From positions 1 through 37,389 of the IMG/VR virus record IMGVR_UViG_3300012944_000041: DNA of 37,389 nucleotides, one strand, 5' to 3'. The position numbers and the translations under genes were made by a program. How positions within the stretch are numbered: the first letter of the stretch is position 1; each line of letters opens with the position of its first letter. Below, piece after piece: positions 3,498 to 37,176 of the stretch. Origin of the DNA: a virus. The notes under the pieces were generated by a model. That model saw nothing but the letters and a program-made list of their open reading frames with translations, ran no database searches and was not told where the DNA came from.

Positions 3498-4997
3498 CTA
3501 AGCAAGCGGCGACTCCTCGTACATCGACATTATGTCCAGCGCAACTGCGCCAGGGGTGCCGCTGCCATTGTTGCTGAGATGGATCTGTCCGGAGAGAAAC
3601 GTGGTGCTGGTCGGGAGCTGCGAGCTGATCGTGCCATTGGCCTCGTGCGCATTCACGATCTCACGTACCCAATAGGTGAACGTGCCGCCGTTCGGCGGCG
3701 CCTGGAAGATCACGTGGTAGACGTTCGAGGTGCTGCTCTTGGCGAAGTTGCTGCCGAGGTCCGCGGCGCTGACAATGTTTCCTGCGCTGTCGTTCGAGTA
3801 GATGTGCAGGTTCGAATCGCCTGAGTCGCATCCCACGAACACGGTGTCGGTGGTGGCGAGCGGAGACGAGTACCCTGTCGGCGCCGCGTTGAAGGCGTGG
3901 ATCCCGACTTCAAAACTCATAGTCGTCAGCGTCGTCGAGATGGCGAAGATAGCCTCGAAGAAGATCCCGCCGAGACCAGCGCCGTTGCCGCGCCACAAGA
4001 AGTTGGCGGAAGACGACCCGTGCATGGTCCAACCTGCCGTGGCATTGGCACCGGTGCCAGTCGTGTTGCTCTGCCGCGTCAGCGACTGACGATAGGAAGC
4101 GGTGGACCGCGTCCCGAAAGCTTGGGTCCCACCGGTATTCTGTTGCCCTGCATTGCCAATCGCCACCATCGCGGTGCCCGCATTGGTTGGGGCGGAAAGG
4201 AGGCCGAACTGACGATTGCTTATCGGCGCGAAGGGCCGCGCTATGTTTTGGATGGCGGCCGCGCTGTGCAGCGGCACAGCGCCGACAGTAGCATCGTCGG
4301 TCCACGTCGGGGCTCCCGACCCATGCTCGGTCAGCACGCGGCCGGTGTTTGGGCCAGGCGCCAAAAGCACCCAGCCAGACGCTCCGGAGCCGCTGCTGCG
4401 ATAGAGAATGGCGCCCGCGGTTGAGCCGATGAGGTCCAGGGCCTCGCTAGGATAGTAGCCAACGATAGTAGAAATCGTCGAGCGCGCGATCAGCTGCGAC
4501 GCGCCGATGCTTGTAATTGGCAGCACGGTCGGTCCGCCGGTCTCGAGCAGCGCGACAACCTCAGCCGTAGCCTGGACCTCCCCCGATGGGTTGGTGAACG
4601 CCCACTCGATCGTGTTCGAGTCGAGGAAGTCGAGCGTGTCTTCGGTGCCTTCGGTCGTGCTGTTGTTGTGGCGGACCGTTAGCGTGCCGCCGCCGGTGAT
4701 GTCCGAGAGCAATGCGAGCTGGCCGTCAATATCCGGCCACTCGAGATGAATTTCGGTGACTATTTCGGCGCCTGTGACGAATGTCGAAGGCGTCAGGCTT
4801 CGCGTGACGGTGAGCGTACCAAGCGTGTCGCCATCTACCTCAATCTCCTCAGTCGCTCCGCCGCCGCGGATCTGCGCGACATATGGGAATCGGTTCGGCA
4901 GATTGAGATGCGTGCCGGTCTGAAGCGTGATGTCGGTTTCGACTGCATCGAGATCCTCGGCTGTGAAGGCGCGGGTGAGGATCGTGAATCCAAGCAT
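3498..4997 (-). CDS. Putative tail fibre / tip protein
   Basis: A 499-aa protein in the usual place for a fibre, directly after the tail hub gene. The N-terminal ~90 residues contain a compact region with LPNRFPYVAQI and TLTVTRSLTPST, resembling the virion-attachment part of many phage fibres. The middle is low-complexity, rich in Ser/Thr/Ala/Gly (SSGSGASGWV, repeated Asn/Thr tracts), and the C-terminal ~200 residues look like a beta-sandwich (FEVGIHAFNA, YHVIFQAPPNGGTFTYWV). No catalytic motif was recognised. The likely role is host recognition. Identification rests on composition and gene order. Confidence 0.65.
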   Translation of the reverse strand: MLGFTILTRAFTAEDLDAVETDITLQTGTHLNLPNRFPYVAQIRGGGATEEIEVDGDTLGTLTVTRSLTPSTFVTGAEIVTEIHLEWPDIDGQLALLSDITGGGTLTVRHNNSTTEGTEDTLDFLDSNTIEWAFTNPSGEVQATAEVVALLETGGPTVLPITSIGASQLIARSTISTIVGYYPSEALDLIGSTAGAILYRSSGSGASGWVLLAPGPNTGRVLTEHGSGAPTWTDDATVGAVPLHSAAAIQNIARPFAPISNRQFGLLSAPTNAGTAMVAIGNAGQQNTGGTQAFGTRSTASYRQSLTRQSNTTGTGANATAGWTMHGSSSANFLWRGNGAGLGGIFFEAIFAISTTLTTMSFEVGIHAFNAAPTGYSSPLATTDTVFVGCDSGDSNLHIYSNDSAGNIVSAADLGSNFAKSSTSNVYHVIFQAPPNGGTFTYWVREIVNAHEANGTISSQLPTSTTFLSGQIHLSNNGSGTPGAVALDIMSMYEESPLA

Positions 4998-31795: not shown

Positions 31796-33246
31796 CCCAG
31801 CCCACTCTGCGACCGGACCTCATCCGAACGCCGCAGACTATCCTCCGCCATCAGCACCTGGTCCGCCGACGGGAAGTGTCCGAACTTGTCTTTGAACACG
31901 AAGTGCGCCCACCCGCGCTTGCGCCCATGCTTCCGCGCCGAGAAGTACAGTTTGATCAGCGTCGACTGCATCTCAGCCTTCGAGGCCGGCAGCTTCACCG
32001 AGTCGGCACCGACGCGCTCGAGCGAGCCATCGACCATCTCTGGCCCATCGCGAGACGCCACCGGGAAGACCTGGCCACAGCTCGGGCACTGCTTCGTTGC
32101 CGATACGACAGCCAGCCCGCACTTCATGCAGTTCTTGACGTTCGGCGCAGACGGGACCGACGGCGCGCCCTTCTCCAGCGACCAGTCGCGCGGCGCGGTA
32201 GGCCAGCCGAGCCGCCGCACTGTCCCCCCATGGTCGAGCACCAGCGCGCGCCCCTTACCCTGAGCGGGCCGCAGTACTCGGCCGATCATTTGAAGGTAGA
32301 GCCCGATCGACTTGGTGGGCCGCGCGAGCACGACCGCATCGAGCTCCGGCACGTCGACGCCCTCGGTGTAGACCTGGCAATTGACCAACACCTCGCACGT
32401 CCCGTCGCGCAGCTCGGACAGCGCCGCGTTCCGTTCGCTCGCCGCGAGCTGCCCGTCGACGTGATGCGCGCGTACGCCGGCAGCGCGGAAAGCCTCGGTG
32501 AGATGGAGCGAGTGCTCGACGGAGCAGGCGAAGACGATGGTGCGCTTGCCGCGCCCGACGATGCGGCTCCAGTTGGTCACCACATCGCCAACGAGTCGCG
32601 GCTTGTCGATGAGCGAGGACAGCGCGGCCTCGGCGTAGTCCCCGCGCTGGGTCGGCACCTTCCGCAGATCCGGCTCGGCTCCGCAGTAGATCTCTGGCTC
32701 GACAAGCCATCCGCCGGCAACAAGTTCGTTCGGCTGCGCGATGACCACCATCTCCTCGTAGATCTCGCCGAGTCCCTTGCCGTCGATGCGGCATGGCGTT
32801 GCGGTGAGGCCGAGGGTCACGGCGCCAGGCTGAGCCTTGGCCATCTCCAGATACGTCTTGGCCATCGAACGGTGAGCCTCGTCGATGATGAGCAGCTGCC
32901 ACCAAGGCACGCGCTTCGCCTTCTTCAGCTGCGGTCCGAGCGTCTGCACCGAGGCCACCATTACCGAGCTGCCGACGCCGCGGCGCCAGTGGTTCCTTTG
33001 GATGATGCCGTGCTCGACCTGCCACTCGTCGAGGCGCGCCGAGCACTGGTCCAATAGCTCCTTCCTGTGCGCGAGGAAGACAGATTGCGTGCCCTTCGCG
33101 GTGGCGGAATGTATCAGTTCGGCGGCGAGCGTTGTTTTTCCACTGCCGGTCGGCGCGACCAGTAGTATGCGCTTCTTGCCGCGGCGGATCGCGTCCCGTA
33201 CGCGATCGAGGCCATCGAGCTGATACTGCCGGAGCGGCTGTCTCAT
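31792..33246 (-). CDS. DEAD/DEAH-box (SF2) helicase with C-terminal zinc finger
   Basis: A 484-aa helicase with all core motifs in order: APTGSGKTT (31-39, Walker A), IIDEAH (DEAH at 122-125), LTATP (147-151), TEGVDVPELDAVV (294-306) and QMIGRVLRP (319-327, with arginine fingers R323 and R326). A zinc finger follows, C373-x2-C376 and C387-x2-C390. The DEAH/zinc layout resembles phage recombination helicases of the RadD/UvsW kind (inference). It probably unwinds branched DNA during replication or recombination. It lies between the RecE-like exonuclease and the methylase, coupled to both by ATGA overlaps. Confidence 0.88.
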   Translation of the reverse strand: MRQPLRQYQLDGLDRVRDAIRRGKKRILLVAPTGSGKTTLAAELIHSATAKGTQSVFLAHRKELLDQCSARLDEWQVEHGIIQRNHWRRGVGSSVMVASVQTLGPQLKKAKRVPWWQLLIIDEAHRSMAKTYLEMAKAQPGAVTLGLTATPCRIDGKGLGEIYEEMVVIAQPNELVAGGWLVEPEIYCGAEPDLRKVPTQRGDYAEAALSSLIDKPRLVGDVVTNWSRIVGRGKRTIVFACSVEHSLHLTEAFRAAGVRAHHVDGQLAASERNAALSELRDGTCEVLVNCQVYTEGVDVPELDAVVLARPTKSIGLYLQMIGRVLRPAQGKGRALVLDHGGTVRRLGWPTAPRDWSLEKGAPSVPSAPNVKNCMKCGLAVVSATKQCPSCGQVFPVASRDGPEMVDGSLERVGADSVKLPASKAEMQSTLIKLYFSARKHGRKRGWAHFVFKDKFGHFPSADQVLMAEDSLRRSDEVRSQSGLG

Positions 33247-33998
33247 TCGACCTCCACCGTCTCCCCGTCGATTTGGAGTTCGAACGAATCATCGATGACG
33301 TCGAATGGGACGACCGCCTCGCAGTAGCCAGGCCACGAGCCGGACGCTTCGCATACGAGCAGCCGCTCCATCCACAGCCGGCACATCCGTTCGCCCATGT
33401 CGAGCGCGCGCGGCGTCAGCTGATGGATCGTGATCGGGTACGGCGCTGCGGACTCCACTGCGACGATGAACGCCTCCTCCGGCCGCTTCCCCAGCGTCGA
33501 CTCGATCCCGTTCAAGTACCAGGCCAGTTGCGCATGGTACCCGTACCAGATCGCGTCTCGCCTGAACTTATCCGGGTGGGCATTCCTGGCCGTCTTCAGA
33601 TCGACGATGCGCTTGCTGGTGAAGCAATCCGGAGTGCCGCGGCATTTGCGACCTACGTAGTCCCAGCGGAGCGTGTGCTGCCGGTCGCCGTCGAGCAGCT
33701 GCATCGCGAGATCGTGCCGCTGGATCGCCAGCGCCATCTCCTTCGCCGGCTCGAATTCGGACAAAGTGAAGATGTCGGCATTGATGTTGGTCGCCTTGAA
33801 CGCGTCCCAGGCTTTGCCGCGACGAATGCCATCCCAGATGACGACGCCAGGCGTCTCGAAGATGATCGCGTCGGTGAGTCTGCCGAGGCGTAGTGCCAGC
33901 GTGTCCTCGCGCTGCTGCTCTACTGAGTAGCGATAATGCGCAGGGGACCTGGACATGTTTTTCAGGTTCGAAAACCTGACTTCTTCCTGCAGCTTCAT
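33243..33998 (-). CDS. RecE-like PD-(D/E)XK exonuclease
   Basis: A 251-aa protein matching the RecE / exodeoxyribonuclease VIII nuclease domain. The N-terminal SNLKNMSRSPAHYRY is the family's typical opening. The active site is D124 (GTPDCF), D133-x-K135 (IVDLKT), and the QxxxY motif Q157-Y161 (HAQLAWYLNG) follows. It would resect double-stranded ends to give 3' single strands for annealing or recombination. It is coupled by ATGA to the 133-aa conserved phage protein upstream and to the helicase downstream. Confidence 0.85.
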   Translation of the reverse strand: MKLQEEVRFSNLKNMSRSPAHYRYSVEQQREDTLALRLGRLTDAIIFETPGVVIWDGIRRGKAWDAFKATNINADIFTLSEFEPAKEMALAIQRHDLAMQLLDGDRQHTLRWDYVGRKCRGTPDCFTSKRIVDLKTARNAHPDKFRRDAIWYGYHAQLAWYLNGIESTLGKRPEEAFIVAVESAAPYPITIHQLTPRALDMGERMCRLWMERLLVCEASGSWPGYCEAVVPFDVIDDSFELQIDGETVEVE

Positions 33999-34396
33999 CC
34001 GTTGCTCCCGGGCTCAGGCGACGGATCGATCGTCGTCGTCGGACCGTTCGGCTCACGCTGTCGGCGCTGAGACTTCGCAGGCGGCCTGACACGGATGCAG
34101 TCGACAGTCTCGATGCCGAACGTGGTGGTAGTCGGGTATAGAGTGATCTGTTTGCCGGCCCATTTCTCGGTGTCGTTGCCGTAGAGCTGCGCGATGATCT
34201 TGCCGTTGGTTTTGTTGCAGGCCAGGCCCTTTTCCTTGCCTTCGAAATAGATCACCGGCTTCTTGGTCTTTCGGTTGCCCTGGCTCGTCAACGTCGCCGC
34301 AGCGACCTTCGCGATCGTGACGGTGACTTCGCGACCGTCGAGGTCCCAGTGCCCCAGATAGTCTCGGTCGAACATCGAACGCCAGTCGGTGGTCAT
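33995..34396 (-). CDS. Conserved phage protein next to RecE-like exonuclease, candidate ssDNA-binding/annealing partner
   Basis: A 133-aa protein of a type common in phage recombination modules. Its core reads MFDRDYLGHWDLDGREVTVT, then KKPVIYFEGKEKGLACNKTN, IIAQLYGNDTEKWAGKQITL and IETVDCIRVRPP. It is compact and beta-rich, which would suit an OB-like fold. The C-terminal ~25 residues are disordered and polar. No annealase or single-strand binding protein is otherwise visible, and its position directly before RecE makes it the best candidate partner, but this is inference. Coupled by ATGA on both sides. Confidence 0.6.
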   Translation of the reverse strand: MTTDWRSMFDRDYLGHWDLDGREVTVTIAKVAAATLTSQGNRKTKKPVIYFEGKEKGLACNKTNGKIIAQLYGNDTEKWAGKQITLYPTTTTFGIETVDCIRVRPPAKSQRRQREPNGPTTTIDPSPEPGSNG

Positions 34397-35049
34397 GGCT
34401 GTGAAAACTCCTTCTGACGCGCCAGATACTGCGCGCGATCCTTCTCTTGTCGTTCGCCCAGAATCCTCTGCGCGCTCAGCACCTCATCGATGGTGCGCGG
34501 GAATGCTCCTGGGCGTTCCTCGACCAGCGTACGGAAGAGGCGCCAGGTTGCTTCGCAGTCAGACAGCGCGTCGTGTGCTTTCAGCGTCGGCACGTTCCAC
34601 CGGCGGCACGTGGCCTCGAGACGATGCCGCCCTTGGCCCGGCACGTACCGATCGATCTCGCGCACCCAGATCAATGCGTCGACCGGGTACCGTTCCGAGA
34701 TCGTCTTCCCAGCGTGCAGGAATTCGGCGCGGACAAACGGCGCGTCGAAGTGCGCAGCATTGTAGCCCAGCAGATGCCGACCCGCGGCCAATTGGGCAAC
34801 GATCGGAGCGATGCGCCAGAACTCCTGAGCCTCACGCACCGCACCGTCGAAGATGCCGTGCACATTCGACGCCGCTTCGGGGATGGGCCGTTCCGGGTTC
34901 ACGAGCGAGACCCAGCGGTGGACGATCTCGCTCTTGTCGATCTGCAGCGTAGCGATCTGGACGATGCGATCAACCGAGTGGTCCAGGCCGGTGGTTTCGA
35001 TGTCGAACACAAGAAACCGTTCATTGGTGAGCCAGTCGGGGGGCTTCAT
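34393..35049 (-). CDS. DnaQ-like 3'-5' exonuclease (DEDDh)
   Basis: A 218-aa exonuclease of the DnaQ family. Exo I FDIETTG holds D16 and E18; Exo II LLGYNAAHFDAPF has D102; Exo III HDALSDCEATW provides H159 and D164, marking the DEDDh type. It may proofread, trim DNA ends or degrade RNA/DNA during replication. The tail after residue 175 is helical and basic. It lies in the replication/recombination group, overlapping the next gene as ATGA. No polymerase was found in the window. Confidence 0.88.
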   Translation of the reverse strand: MKPPDWLTNERFLVFDIETTGLDHSVDRIVQIATLQIDKSEIVHRWVSLVNPERPIPEAASNVHGIFDGAVREAQEFWRIAPIVAQLAAGRHLLGYNAAHFDAPFVRAEFLHAGKTISERYPVDALIWVREIDRYVPGQGRHRLEATCRRWNVPTLKAHDALSDCEATWRLFRTLVEERPGAFPRTIDEVLSAQRILGERQEKDRAQYLARQKEFSQP

Positions 35050-35309
35050 CGCGTCGTGGTTTCCTCAGCGTGCATCTCGCCCCGCTCATGGCGCCACATC
35101 GCGATCACGTCGACCAGCTCCACGTGCCCGTACGCACGCGGATCCTTCCTCGCGGCGCGCCCGATCAGCCATTGGACGAATTCCTCTGCCAGGTCAGCGG
35201 CGGACTCGCTGTAATTTCCGTGGAAGAGCGGCCCGAATGCGGCCTCGGAGACCAAGTCGTAGAATACGGCCAGGTCTTTCTCGGCGTCGTAGAGGATCCT
35301 CGTGCTCAC
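35046..35309 (-). CDS. Hypothetical 87-aa protein
   Basis: An acidic protein starting GTG 35309 (MSTRILYDAEKDLAVFYDLV). It is helical (SAADLAEEFVQWLIGRAARK) with no motif I can name. A GGAGGTGAG site precedes the GTG, and the start overlaps the stop of the alanine-rich gene as GTGA. It is the likely translational partner of that gene. Function unknown. Confidence 0.5.
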   Translation of the reverse strand: MSTRILYDAEKDLAVFYDLVSEAAFGPLFHGNYSESAADLAEEFVQWLIGRAARKDPRAYGHVELVDVIAMWRHERGEMHAEETTTR

Positions 35310-36166
35310 TGCTCACCTCCAAGCGCAATCATTCGCTCGACCAATTCGACCGCGCTGATTTGCAGACGCTCGCGCGTTGGCGCGAGCGCGGCCCAGGCGG
35401 CGTCCCTGGCGGCGTCCCCGGCGGCGGCCCAGGCGGCGCCCCAGGCGGCGTCCCCGGCGGCGGCACTGGCGGCGTCCACGGCGGCGACCCTGGCGGCGCC
35501 CCAGGCGGCGGCACTGGCGGCGCCCCAGGCGGCGTCCCAGGCGGCGGCACTGGCGGCGTCCACGGCGGCGTCCCAGGCGGCGGCCCTGGCGGCGGCACTG
35601 GCGGCGGCACTGGCGGCGTCCCCGGCGGCGGCCCAGGCGGCGACCCTGGCGGCGCCCCAGGCGGCGTCCCCGGCGGCGTCCCAGGCGGCGACCCTGGCGG
35701 CGACCCTGGCGGCGTCAACAGTCTTGCGCGCCGCCTGAGCCGTGCGCATGTCCACGATCGGAGAGAGGCCGCGCAGCGAGGCTGCATGCGCCTTGAGCTC
35801 GGCCCTGAGATCCAGCCACTCCGGCGTGTGCGCGCGAATCAGCCAGTCCAAGGCGAGGAAGGAACGCTGCTCCTCGATCGCTGCAGTGGACTTTGTCCCG
35901 ACGATCTTTGGCAACAACGGCCGTAGCAGCTTCGTACGCTCCTCAGCCGGCAGCGCGTCGTTCCAGCTGCGCAGGAAGGCTGCGATCACCGGACAGGCGC
36001 ATGACGGAGAGTCGGAGTGCTTCTTGCCGGCCAGCCAGGCCACTGCCTCCATAGCGCACAGACCTTCCTCGCGCGTGGAGTGCGAGCCGCTCTGCAGCTT
36101 GATCGACTTGAGCAGCTTCGCCGGCAACGACCGGTCGAGATACTTTTGGAGTGCTTTGCTGATCAT
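35306..36166 (-). CDS. Alanine-rich protein with 27 tetrapeptide repeats
   Basis: A 286-aa protein in three parts. Residues 1 to ~145 form a conserved-looking domain (EEGLCAMEAVAWLAGKKHSD, then ACPVIAAFLRSWNDALPAEE, and DWLIRAHTPEWLDLRAELKA) that I recall from alanine-repeat proteins of phages and high-GC bacteria, with no known function. Residues ~150-257 are 27 tandem four-residue units, each ending AA (RVAA, WDAA, GDAA, WGAA, SAAA). A short helical end (RERLQISAVELVERMIALGG) follows. The repeat would make a long amphipathic helix with Trp or Arg on one face and small residues on the other. Role unknown: binding rod, immunity-like protein or scaffold. Coupled to neighbours by ATGA and GTGA. 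Confidence 0.7.
   Translation of the reverse strand: MISKALQKYLDRSLPAKLLKSIKLQSGSHSTREEGLCAMEAVAWLAGKKHSDSPSCACPVIAAFLRSWNDALPAEERTKLLRPLLPKIVGTKSTAAIEEQRSFLALDWLIRAHTPEWLDLRAELKAHAASLRGLSPIVDMRTAQAARKTVDAARVAARVAAWDAAGDAAWGAARVAAWAAAGDAASAAASAAARAAAWDAAVDAASAAAWDAAWGAASAAAWGAARVAAVDAASAAAGDAAWGAAWAAAGDAARDAAWAALAPTRERLQISAVELVERMIALGGEQ
35396..35719. repeat. Minisatellite: 27 perfect-register copies of a 12-bp unit
   Basis: The unit on the plus strand is GGCGGCGNC followed by three variable bases. The first seven bases and the ninth are the same in all 27 copies; base 8 takes all four nucleotides, and bases 10-12 are mostly CCT, CCA, CCC, ACT, CAC or AAC. No copy is interrupted by an indel, so the reading frame is kept throughout. 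It lies inside the alanine-rich gene. Because the period is a multiple of three and the unit contains no stop, all six frames are open over it. Confidence 0.95.
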
Positions 36167-36399
36167 CCCGCCACCGCCTTCCGCCGAGCCTGCTCCGCGT
36201 AATTCTCCGCGATGACAATGTCGCGGAGTCGCTCATTGTAGAGCTCGACCAGACCGAGCTTCAACGCGGTCTCGGCGGCCGCGCTGTACCGCTCCGCCAA
36301 GGCCGCCCAGAATTCTGCCGACTCGACCGGAGTCATCCCGTTGATCAGGACGCCAGAGACGCGCCAGCTATCGATCGCCCTCTTCACCTCGTCACGCAT
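36163..36399 (-). CDS. Hypothetical 78-aa protein
   Basis: Starts MRDEVKRAIDSWRVSGVLIN and continues with helices (PVESAEFWAALAERYSAAAE, TALKLGLVELYNERLRDIVI). ATG 36399 has a perfect GGAGGT site about 8 nt upstream; the longer frame is shadow. It overlaps the previous gene by 8 nt and the alanine-rich gene by an ATGA. No family was recognised. Confidence 0.5.
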   Translation of the reverse strand: MRDEVKRAIDSWRVSGVLINGMTPVESAEFWAALAERYSAAAETALKLGLVELYNERLRDIVIAENYAEQARRKAVAG

Positions 36400-36988
36400 C
36401 ACGTACCTCCGACCGCACCGCGGCCTCAGCTTCGAGCATTCCGTAGAGCAGTGCGCGTTCCTCCGCCTGCCGCACCGTCTCACCCCAATGGACCGGCAGC
36501 GTCTCCATCTCCGGTGCGATACCGGAGCCGTCTGGCGTCAGGCACGACCACTCGACCAGACGCTCTTCCGCCGAGCTCGGCCATACGAGTCGCACAGACA
36601 GCGTGTAGCCAGCGGCGCGTGCGGTCCGCAGCTGACCATCCTTGGTCCATTGCAGTGACGGCGGCAGTCGCCGGTCCCCGGCGCCGTAGCACTCGGAACA
36701 GACGTAGTGGTCACCGACCTCGCCAGTACCAAGGCATGTCGGGCACTGATCGGCGAGCCGCGCTGCCTCCTCGATGAGCGCGATGGGGGGCTCGTGCTCG
36801 TTGAGCCAGCTCGGAGCGTCGTGCCCGGCAAGGCCCACGCCTGCCGCCTCGGCCACCAGCTGGCCCAGGCGGGCGTAGCGGGTCCGAGATGAGCGCGAGA
36901 CCAGCGCCACCGCCTGCGCCGCGCTGAAGCCGGGAGCCTGCTCGCGCATCAGACCAGCGGCGTCGAGGAGATCCTGCGCGGCGGTCAT
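36392..36988 (-). CDS. Early protein with DnaJ-type zinc motif (198 aa)
   Basis: The N-terminal ~75 residues are helical (TAAQDLLDAAGLMREQAPGF). A DnaJ-type zinc finger lies at about residues 82-104: CPTCLGTGEV, then CSECYGAGDR, with C82, C85, C97 and C100. The C-terminal half is beta-rich and contains GYTLSVRLVWPSSAEERLVE and EMETLPVHWGETVRQAEERA. ATG 36988 was chosen for its ATGA overlap with the 63-aa gene. It has no recognised family beyond the zinc motif. Confidence 0.55.
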   Translation of the reverse strand: MTAAQDLLDAAGLMREQAPGFSAAQAVALVSRSSRTRYARLGQLVAEAAGVGLAGHDAPSWLNEHEPPIALIEEAARLADQCPTCLGTGEVGDHYVCSECYGAGDRRLPPSLQWTKDGQLRTARAAGYTLSVRLVWPSSAEERLVEWSCLTPDGSGIAPEMETLPVHWGETVRQAEERALLYGMLEAEAAVRSEVRDA

Positions 36989-37176
36989 TGCTTGGCCTCG
37001 CGGACCAGCCAAATGACGACAGAGTATGGCGCATCCTGGTCGGGCTCGCCCGGCGACCACCAAGGGTCCGCGTTGAAGGAGTCGGCTCGAGCCTGCGCAT
37101 CAGCGTGGCTTTCCCACACCGAGGAGACCTGACCGCCTGAGGTCATCAAAAGGGAGACCGTCTTGTCGACGTTCAT
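36985..37176 (-). CDS. Hypothetical 63-aa protein
   Basis: MNVDKTVSLLMTSGGQVSSV, then WESHADAQARADSFNADPWW and a C-terminal strand (APYSVVIWLVREAKQ). It looks like a small alpha/beta protein. The start ATG 37176 overlaps the stop of the next upstream gene as ATGA, and a longer frame to 37347 is shadow. Function unknown. Confidence 0.5.
   Translation of the reverse strand: MNVDKTVSLLMTSGGQVSSVWESHADAQARADSFNADPWWSPGEPDQDAPYSVVIWLVREAKQ

Follow-up and report, generated by a model that had tools for sequence, protein, structure and literature searches.

A 12-bp tandem repeat with nearly frozen silent sites and polymorphic residue sites encodes a probable helical arm in an uncharacterized phage protein

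The array gene and its surroundings

The window analyzed here is the whole of a 37,389-base IMG/VR virus record, which may be incomplete; its genes include PHROG matches to tail, head, terminase, primase, helicase, methyltransferase, and exonuclease functions. On the minus strand lies a complete gene (bp 35306-36166) with an ATG start, which N-domain homologs support; it encodes a protein of 286 amino acids (plus the stop codon) made up of an N-terminal domain, a repeat arm, and a C-terminal helix. Two further minus strand genes in its neighborhood are a homolog of the RNase_T/DNA polymerase exonuclease subunit (bp 34393-35049) and an exonuclease VIII-like (DUF3799) gene (bp 33243-33998). The initial annotation, made from the letters alone, called the array gene a phage early gene, and the adjoining exonuclease, recombination, and helicase genes make an early position plausible. 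Another neighbor (bp 36392-37063, minus strand) encodes a 223 amino acid protein with a weak match, below the Pfam cut-off, to the DnaJ zinc-center (CXXCXGXG). The window contains no tyrosine integrase, and a nucleotide search of the phage collection returned no close relatives of this phage. A conserved neighborhood was not found; a homolog of a window neighbor lies nearby in just 5 of 110 loci with the N-domain, many of which are short.

The array itself (bp 35396-35719, minus strand) is composed of exactly 27 contiguous 12-bp units with zero indels, and these encode residues 150-257 as units of the form [WRGSV][DAVG]AA. TRF gives it a score of 378 at period 12, and a 48-bp period scores higher. 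On the plus strand, the GGCGGCG-C skeleton is invariant in 27 of 27 units, any of the four nucleotides can be found at base 8, and there is variation at bases 10-12, so that the register, skeleton, and variable bases described initially are all as stated. On the coding strand, the unit is NNN-GNC-GCC-GCC, in which variation is confined to the first codon and to the second position of the next. The first residue is W in nine units, R in six, S in five, G in four, and V in three; the second is D in 11, A in eight, V in four, and G in four, followed always by Ala-Ala, which agrees with the narrow residue set reported at the outset. The array had also been described as open in all six frames. Five are fully open, but in the sixth the first unit contains one TGA (GTT GAC), which leaves that frame open over 26 of the 27 units; this openness is a consequence of the composition of a unit whose length is a multiple of three, and it carries no information.

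The two variable codons within a unit of the window array are linked (0 of 5000 shuffles gave as high a value), adjacent units are unlinked, and the order of the units is indistinguishable from random. There is no higher-order block duplication in this array, and no 3-unit word is repeated in it. Among 70 longer arrays, there are 117 repeated 3-unit words versus 57 expected, or twice the expected number. We infer the recombination history of the window array, itself without block-duplication structure, from the array class as a whole.

The N-terminal domain and the predicted fold

Alignment and a structure model delimit an N-terminal globular domain (residues 1-139; bp 35750-36166, minus strand) with the motif G-x-H...C-A-M-E-A-V-A-W...S-D-x-P-x-C...N-D. 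Besides the start, residues H29, C37, E40, P54, C56, D70, and R77 are invariant in the 36-37 aligned members of this CAMEAVAW family, to which the window protein belongs with 31-60% identity and all conserved columns present. By tblastn, the domain is found in 24 IMG/VR contigs and in 33 bacterial contigs that include Methylobacterium, Planctomycetota, Arthrobacter, and Leucobacter; among the fetched loci, 110 carry it overall. When the N-domain was compared with protein families, as the initial annotation had suggested, it gave weak matches (E 0.0015 to 0.012 when searched on its own) to phrog_3416 and phrog_13065, which are phage proteins of unknown function; the alanine tail exaggerates the significance of the 1e-8 obtained with the full-length protein. 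Neither the window protein nor its N-domain matches any Pfam or NCBIfam profile; Imm5_like (PF21805), DUF7666, and DUF6197 gave no match to E = 1 with the whole protein or to E = 10 with pieces of it, and no NACHT, NB-ARC, or WD40-type Pfam domain and no match to the PADLOC defense models was found in it. Searches of the PDB by sequence hit nothing beyond the alanine tail, with weak low-complexity matches, and searches by fold gave nothing significant for the models of the window protein or of an array-free Methylobacterium homolog. By homology, then, the N-domain is a widespread uncharacterized family, and the initial suggestion of a conserved N-terminal family is borne out by the two PHROGs and the tblastn loci.

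Nearly all viral members of the family have an alanine-rich tail of their own flavor (WDAA, ENAA, ESAA, AAY, or ASAY), and in many the tail is followed by a common C-terminal helix (LxPT..LQ.SA..LVERMI). In the window protein the partial last unit and C-terminal helix (WAALAPTRERLQISAVELVERMIALGGEQ; bp 35309-35395, minus strand) are common to relatives with unrelated array lengths, and pLDDT is 92-97 over residues 261-280. The Ala-rich tails of the relatives are 64-156 amino acids long, and sequence identity is no predictor of similarity in length. The array is absent in relatives L020, L023, and L025, as well as in the Planctomycetota and most Methylobacterium homologs (the array-free homologs in these genomes are L169-L176, L182 and L158-L168, L180). 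Chromosomal Methylobacterium homologs have a short non-repeat helical segment at the array's place, with traces of the motif (AAAWDAA...AAGWDAAYAAAYAAAR), and the structure model of the array-free homolog has several shorter predicted helices there.

An AlphaFold2 model of the window protein, built with the 36 aligned members, has a pLDDT of about 95 over residues 21-150 and contains two 67-residue helices (residues 140-206 and 215-281), with pLDDT values of 34-50 in the middle of the arm and 92-97 in the last helix. The product of the repeat is thus probably a long helical arm, in keeping with the alanine helix proposed initially. The two predicted helices are of equal length and meet near the center of the array, and this feature of the model suggests a hairpin that returns the C-terminal helix toward the globular domain. 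The amphipathic nature attributed to the helix was not borne out. With a strict 4-residue period, the variable residue turns by 40 degrees from one unit to the next, covering the helical wheel and canceling the mean direction in nine units; because the variable residues rotate around the helix in this way, a simple amphipathic helix lacks support, and what is conserved is not one amphipathic face.

Similar arrays in other phages

In IMG/VR, at least 119 stretches fit the exact unit pattern and at least 120 fit a wobble-blind pattern, which ignores silent sites, making up a non-random sample; among the matches listed, the wobble-blind sample comprises 124 arrays and 1,486 units. The 196 upstream regions fall into 22 groups of leading sequence, ten of which have at least two members, and closely similar arrays thus recur in phages downstream of some 20 mutually unrelated groups of leading sequence. 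Some of the array-bearing proteins match DUF7666 (PF24703), DUF6197 (PF19698), or Imm5_like, and a weaker match to DUF6745 is below cut-off. These phage proteins have their own domains with similar Ala-rich 4-residue arrays, and the window protein differs from them in matching none. The Imm5_like and Imm5 (PF14423) families are of putative immunity function; the L054 array protein matches Imm5_like at 36.5 bits (cut-off 25) over the helical region leading into its array. A sister flavor with [DYRH]AAT units is present on DUF6745-like proteins in L052, L065, L124, and L064/L077. Isolate phages also carry arrays (Pseudomonas phages AF and PPpW-3, Erwinia phage phiEt88, and Burkholderia phage Bcep176), so they are not an artifact of metagenome assembly.

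Several paralogous array genes are present in single phages (L127, L207, L244, and L262). Three of these contigs (L127, L244, and L262) have 3-5 tandem or dispersed paralogs each, with conserved flanks (LPNAKYID... and ...ALIAWDD) around an Ala-rich array that differs from one paralog to the next. The L207 paralogs (bp 2397-2672 and 3659-3970) have similar flanks and different silent codon pairs, GCG GCC versus GCC GCA, which indicates that their arrays are homogenized separately.

Many IMG/VR contigs end inside or beside arrays (for example L034, L041, L042, L055, and L087), which suggests that arrays break short-read assemblies and are under-counted. Frame shifts in or near the arrays of L154 (MW202621) and L130 give rise to LGRRQGRR or GPPPGPP tails and are either sequencing errors or real frame changes. 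Deposited annotations of the array genes of L153 (MW202691), L148 (phiEt88), and L155 (KY981271) are in the wrong frame, antisense, truncated, or labeled "tail fiber protein"; the spurious annotations that had been predicted for such sequences are therefore present in related records. The open-access papers searched here yielded no description of such arrays.

Changes between related arrays

Pairs that are at least 99.6% identical over their shared stretch for the most part have identical arrays (L006/L007, L057/L101, L059/L107, L083/L089, L195/L197, and L210/L214). In L030/L126, two silent changes and one that alters a residue lie within the array or at its end. In L153/L289, the N-domain has no silent change and 12 of 63 array codons differ, all of them changing the amino acid, with lengths equal. 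Two near-identical pairs, L003/L024 and L064/L077, have differences inside their arrays that lie beside contig ends and so are not counted as rapid change. Where N-domains are about 86-91% identical (L149/L232/L290 and L237/L274), copy number or length and unit order both differ, which is the comparison between relatives proposed at the start. The idea that the gene varies quickly needs to be qualified: copy number and unit order do change between relatives at this distance, but the identical arrays of the near-identical pairs argue against extreme instability.

The arrays of phages AF and PPpW-3 differ by 21 amino acid and 0 silent changes, compared to 24 and 52 in their flanks (Fisher 4e-9), an excess that may largely reflect reshuffling of existing unit types and so is no proof by itself of selection for novelty. 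Unit types also differ between these orthologs, with RD and WA in AF and RA, WD, and GD in PPpW-3.

Silent and residue-changing sites within arrays

When units of the window array are compared with each other, pN is.215 and pS is.025; most other arrays examined have a similar pN excess, and it is weaker or absent in L013, L149, and L155. Across the 124 wobble-blind arrays mean diversity is.527 at base 1 and.426 at base 5 versus.054,.043, and.031 at bases 6, 9, and 12. Both Ala wobbles are fixed in 98 of these 124 arrays, and arrays in which base 1 alone is polymorphic outnumber those in which a wobble alone is by 96:0, 103:0, and 108:0. Within arrays of two N-domain families, silent diversity is.03-.04 versus.49-.50 at residue sites. 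Between phages, however, 14 of the 16 possible wobble pairs are used across the 124 arrays, and arrays differ more in their wobble pairs the further their N-domains have diverged at fourfold sites (0, about.35, and.5-.7). Wobble pairs therefore diverge roughly like the fourfold sites of the N-domain, which indicates that wobble sites mutate freely and that no particular base is required. Arginine codons AGG and CGG, which differ at base 1, the very base that varies, are mixed in 4 of 102 arrays versus a shuffled mean of 83.

Silent sites that are fixed within arrays and free between phages, together with mixed residue sites, suggest that units are homogenized by recombination and that selection keeps the residue mixture; this combination speaks against both a fixed mutational cold spot and a requirement for one DNA sequence. 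This pattern and the window pN/pS values support the selection on residues proposed by the initial annotation, and they appear to reflect selection at the level of the protein encoded by the arrays. The comparison of silent and residue-changing sites could fit both diversifying selection for new variants and selection that preserves a soluble, charge-balanced mixture.

Possible roles of the arm and alternative explanations

The most probable reading, to which we give a probability of about 0.6, is that the gene encodes an accessory protein with a helical arm whose array is under concerted evolution and selection for a mixture of residues, with a contact or spacer role. The conserved globular N-domain would carry a projecting alanine-rich helical hairpin that returns to let the conserved C-terminal helix pack near it, and the length of the arm would be set by the number of 12-bp units, each contributing four residues. 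Whole 12-bp units would act as cassettes that are gained by duplication, lost, and swapped in register, and this turnover would homogenize the silent sites, while selection would maintain a mixture at the first two positions, drawn from W (aromatic), R (basic), G and S (small), and D (acidic). Such an arm would most likely serve as a contact surface or spacer of variable length for a partner from the host or the phage, as its anatomy and a parallel with fungal receptor repeats suggest. In the NACHT/WD-repeat (hnwd) genes of Podospora anserina, among them het-d and het-e, concerted evolution homogenizes the repeats, amino acid variation is found at few codons, repeat exchange is frequent, and positive diversifying selection has been reported at four codons (PMC1805685, PMC2873952). 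The phage repeats resemble these high-internal-conservation repeats in their mode of evolution, being near-identical with homogenized silent sites and few variable codons. However, the fungal units are WD40 beta-propeller units in NLR-type receptors, whereas the phage unit is four residues long and probably helical, is found in proteins without NACHT domains, and is unrelated in sequence.

Concerted evolution could also operate with a different selected property. Selection might preserve composition only, if a soluble helical arm needs W, R, and D mixed and recognizes nothing, in which case unit order would be free. This sub-case of the above account is a serious contender, although at rather less than even odds, and is close in probability to a contact arm. 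The random unit order in the window fits it, as do a mean net charge per unit near zero (R+K.38 versus D+E.44) and the presence of both W and R in 92% of arrays of at least eight units. On the other hand, R and D counts correlate weakly (r =.18), G is common in spite of weakening helices, and the AF and PPpW-3 orthologs differ in unit types, not just in their order.

A constraint on the repeat DNA or its codons, by which the DNA itself must stay identical for recombination, structure, or translation speed, would account for the near-invariance of silent bases within arrays, including the window array, in which 54 of 54 Ala codons are GCC versus 33% in the other genes of the phage (p ~5e-27). 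This is improbable, since different phages use nearly all wobble pairs, which diverge about as N-domain fourfold sites do, and since arrays keep to one of AGG and CGG although the base that distinguishes the two otherwise varies. Low-complexity slippage, in which tolerant C-terminal regions would let GC-rich 12-bp minisatellites expand because alanine runs there are harmless and residue variation is neutral, is very unlikely. The location of the arrays in uncharacterized accessory genes, the relatives without arrays, and the unpredictable tail lengths all agree with it, but neutral drift should strike wobbles at least as often as residue-changing bases, which is contradicted in 124 arrays, and the W/R/G plus D/A alphabet recurs on 14 silent backgrounds and behind about 20 leading sequence groups. 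Targeted mutagenesis, for example by a diversity-generating retroelement, would similarly confine variation to defined codon positions but is highly implausible, as the window has no reverse transcriptase (control genomes gave hits), the changes are not adenine-specific, and the near absence of arrays with both AGG and CGG indicates that base 1 is not hypermutated.

Biological significance

In addition to concerted evolution with selection for a residue mixture, a stronger proposal is that the arrays are portable, rapidly reshuffled helical recognition arms on many unrelated phage domains, with residues diversified against host partners. We regard this as tentative and on balance unlikely; if true, the arm would be the phage counterpart of the diversifying repeats in fungal immune receptors. 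The arrays also account for one recurrent kind of gene-calling error. More generally, they carry a strong signature of what appears to be protein-level selection in a class of sequence that is usually dismissed as low complexity, in well over a hundred phage contigs and in isolates. The wobble bases, which lie a few letters from the selected ones, provide a built-in neutral control, and the tempo and cause of repeat evolution should thus be testable in phages that can be grown.
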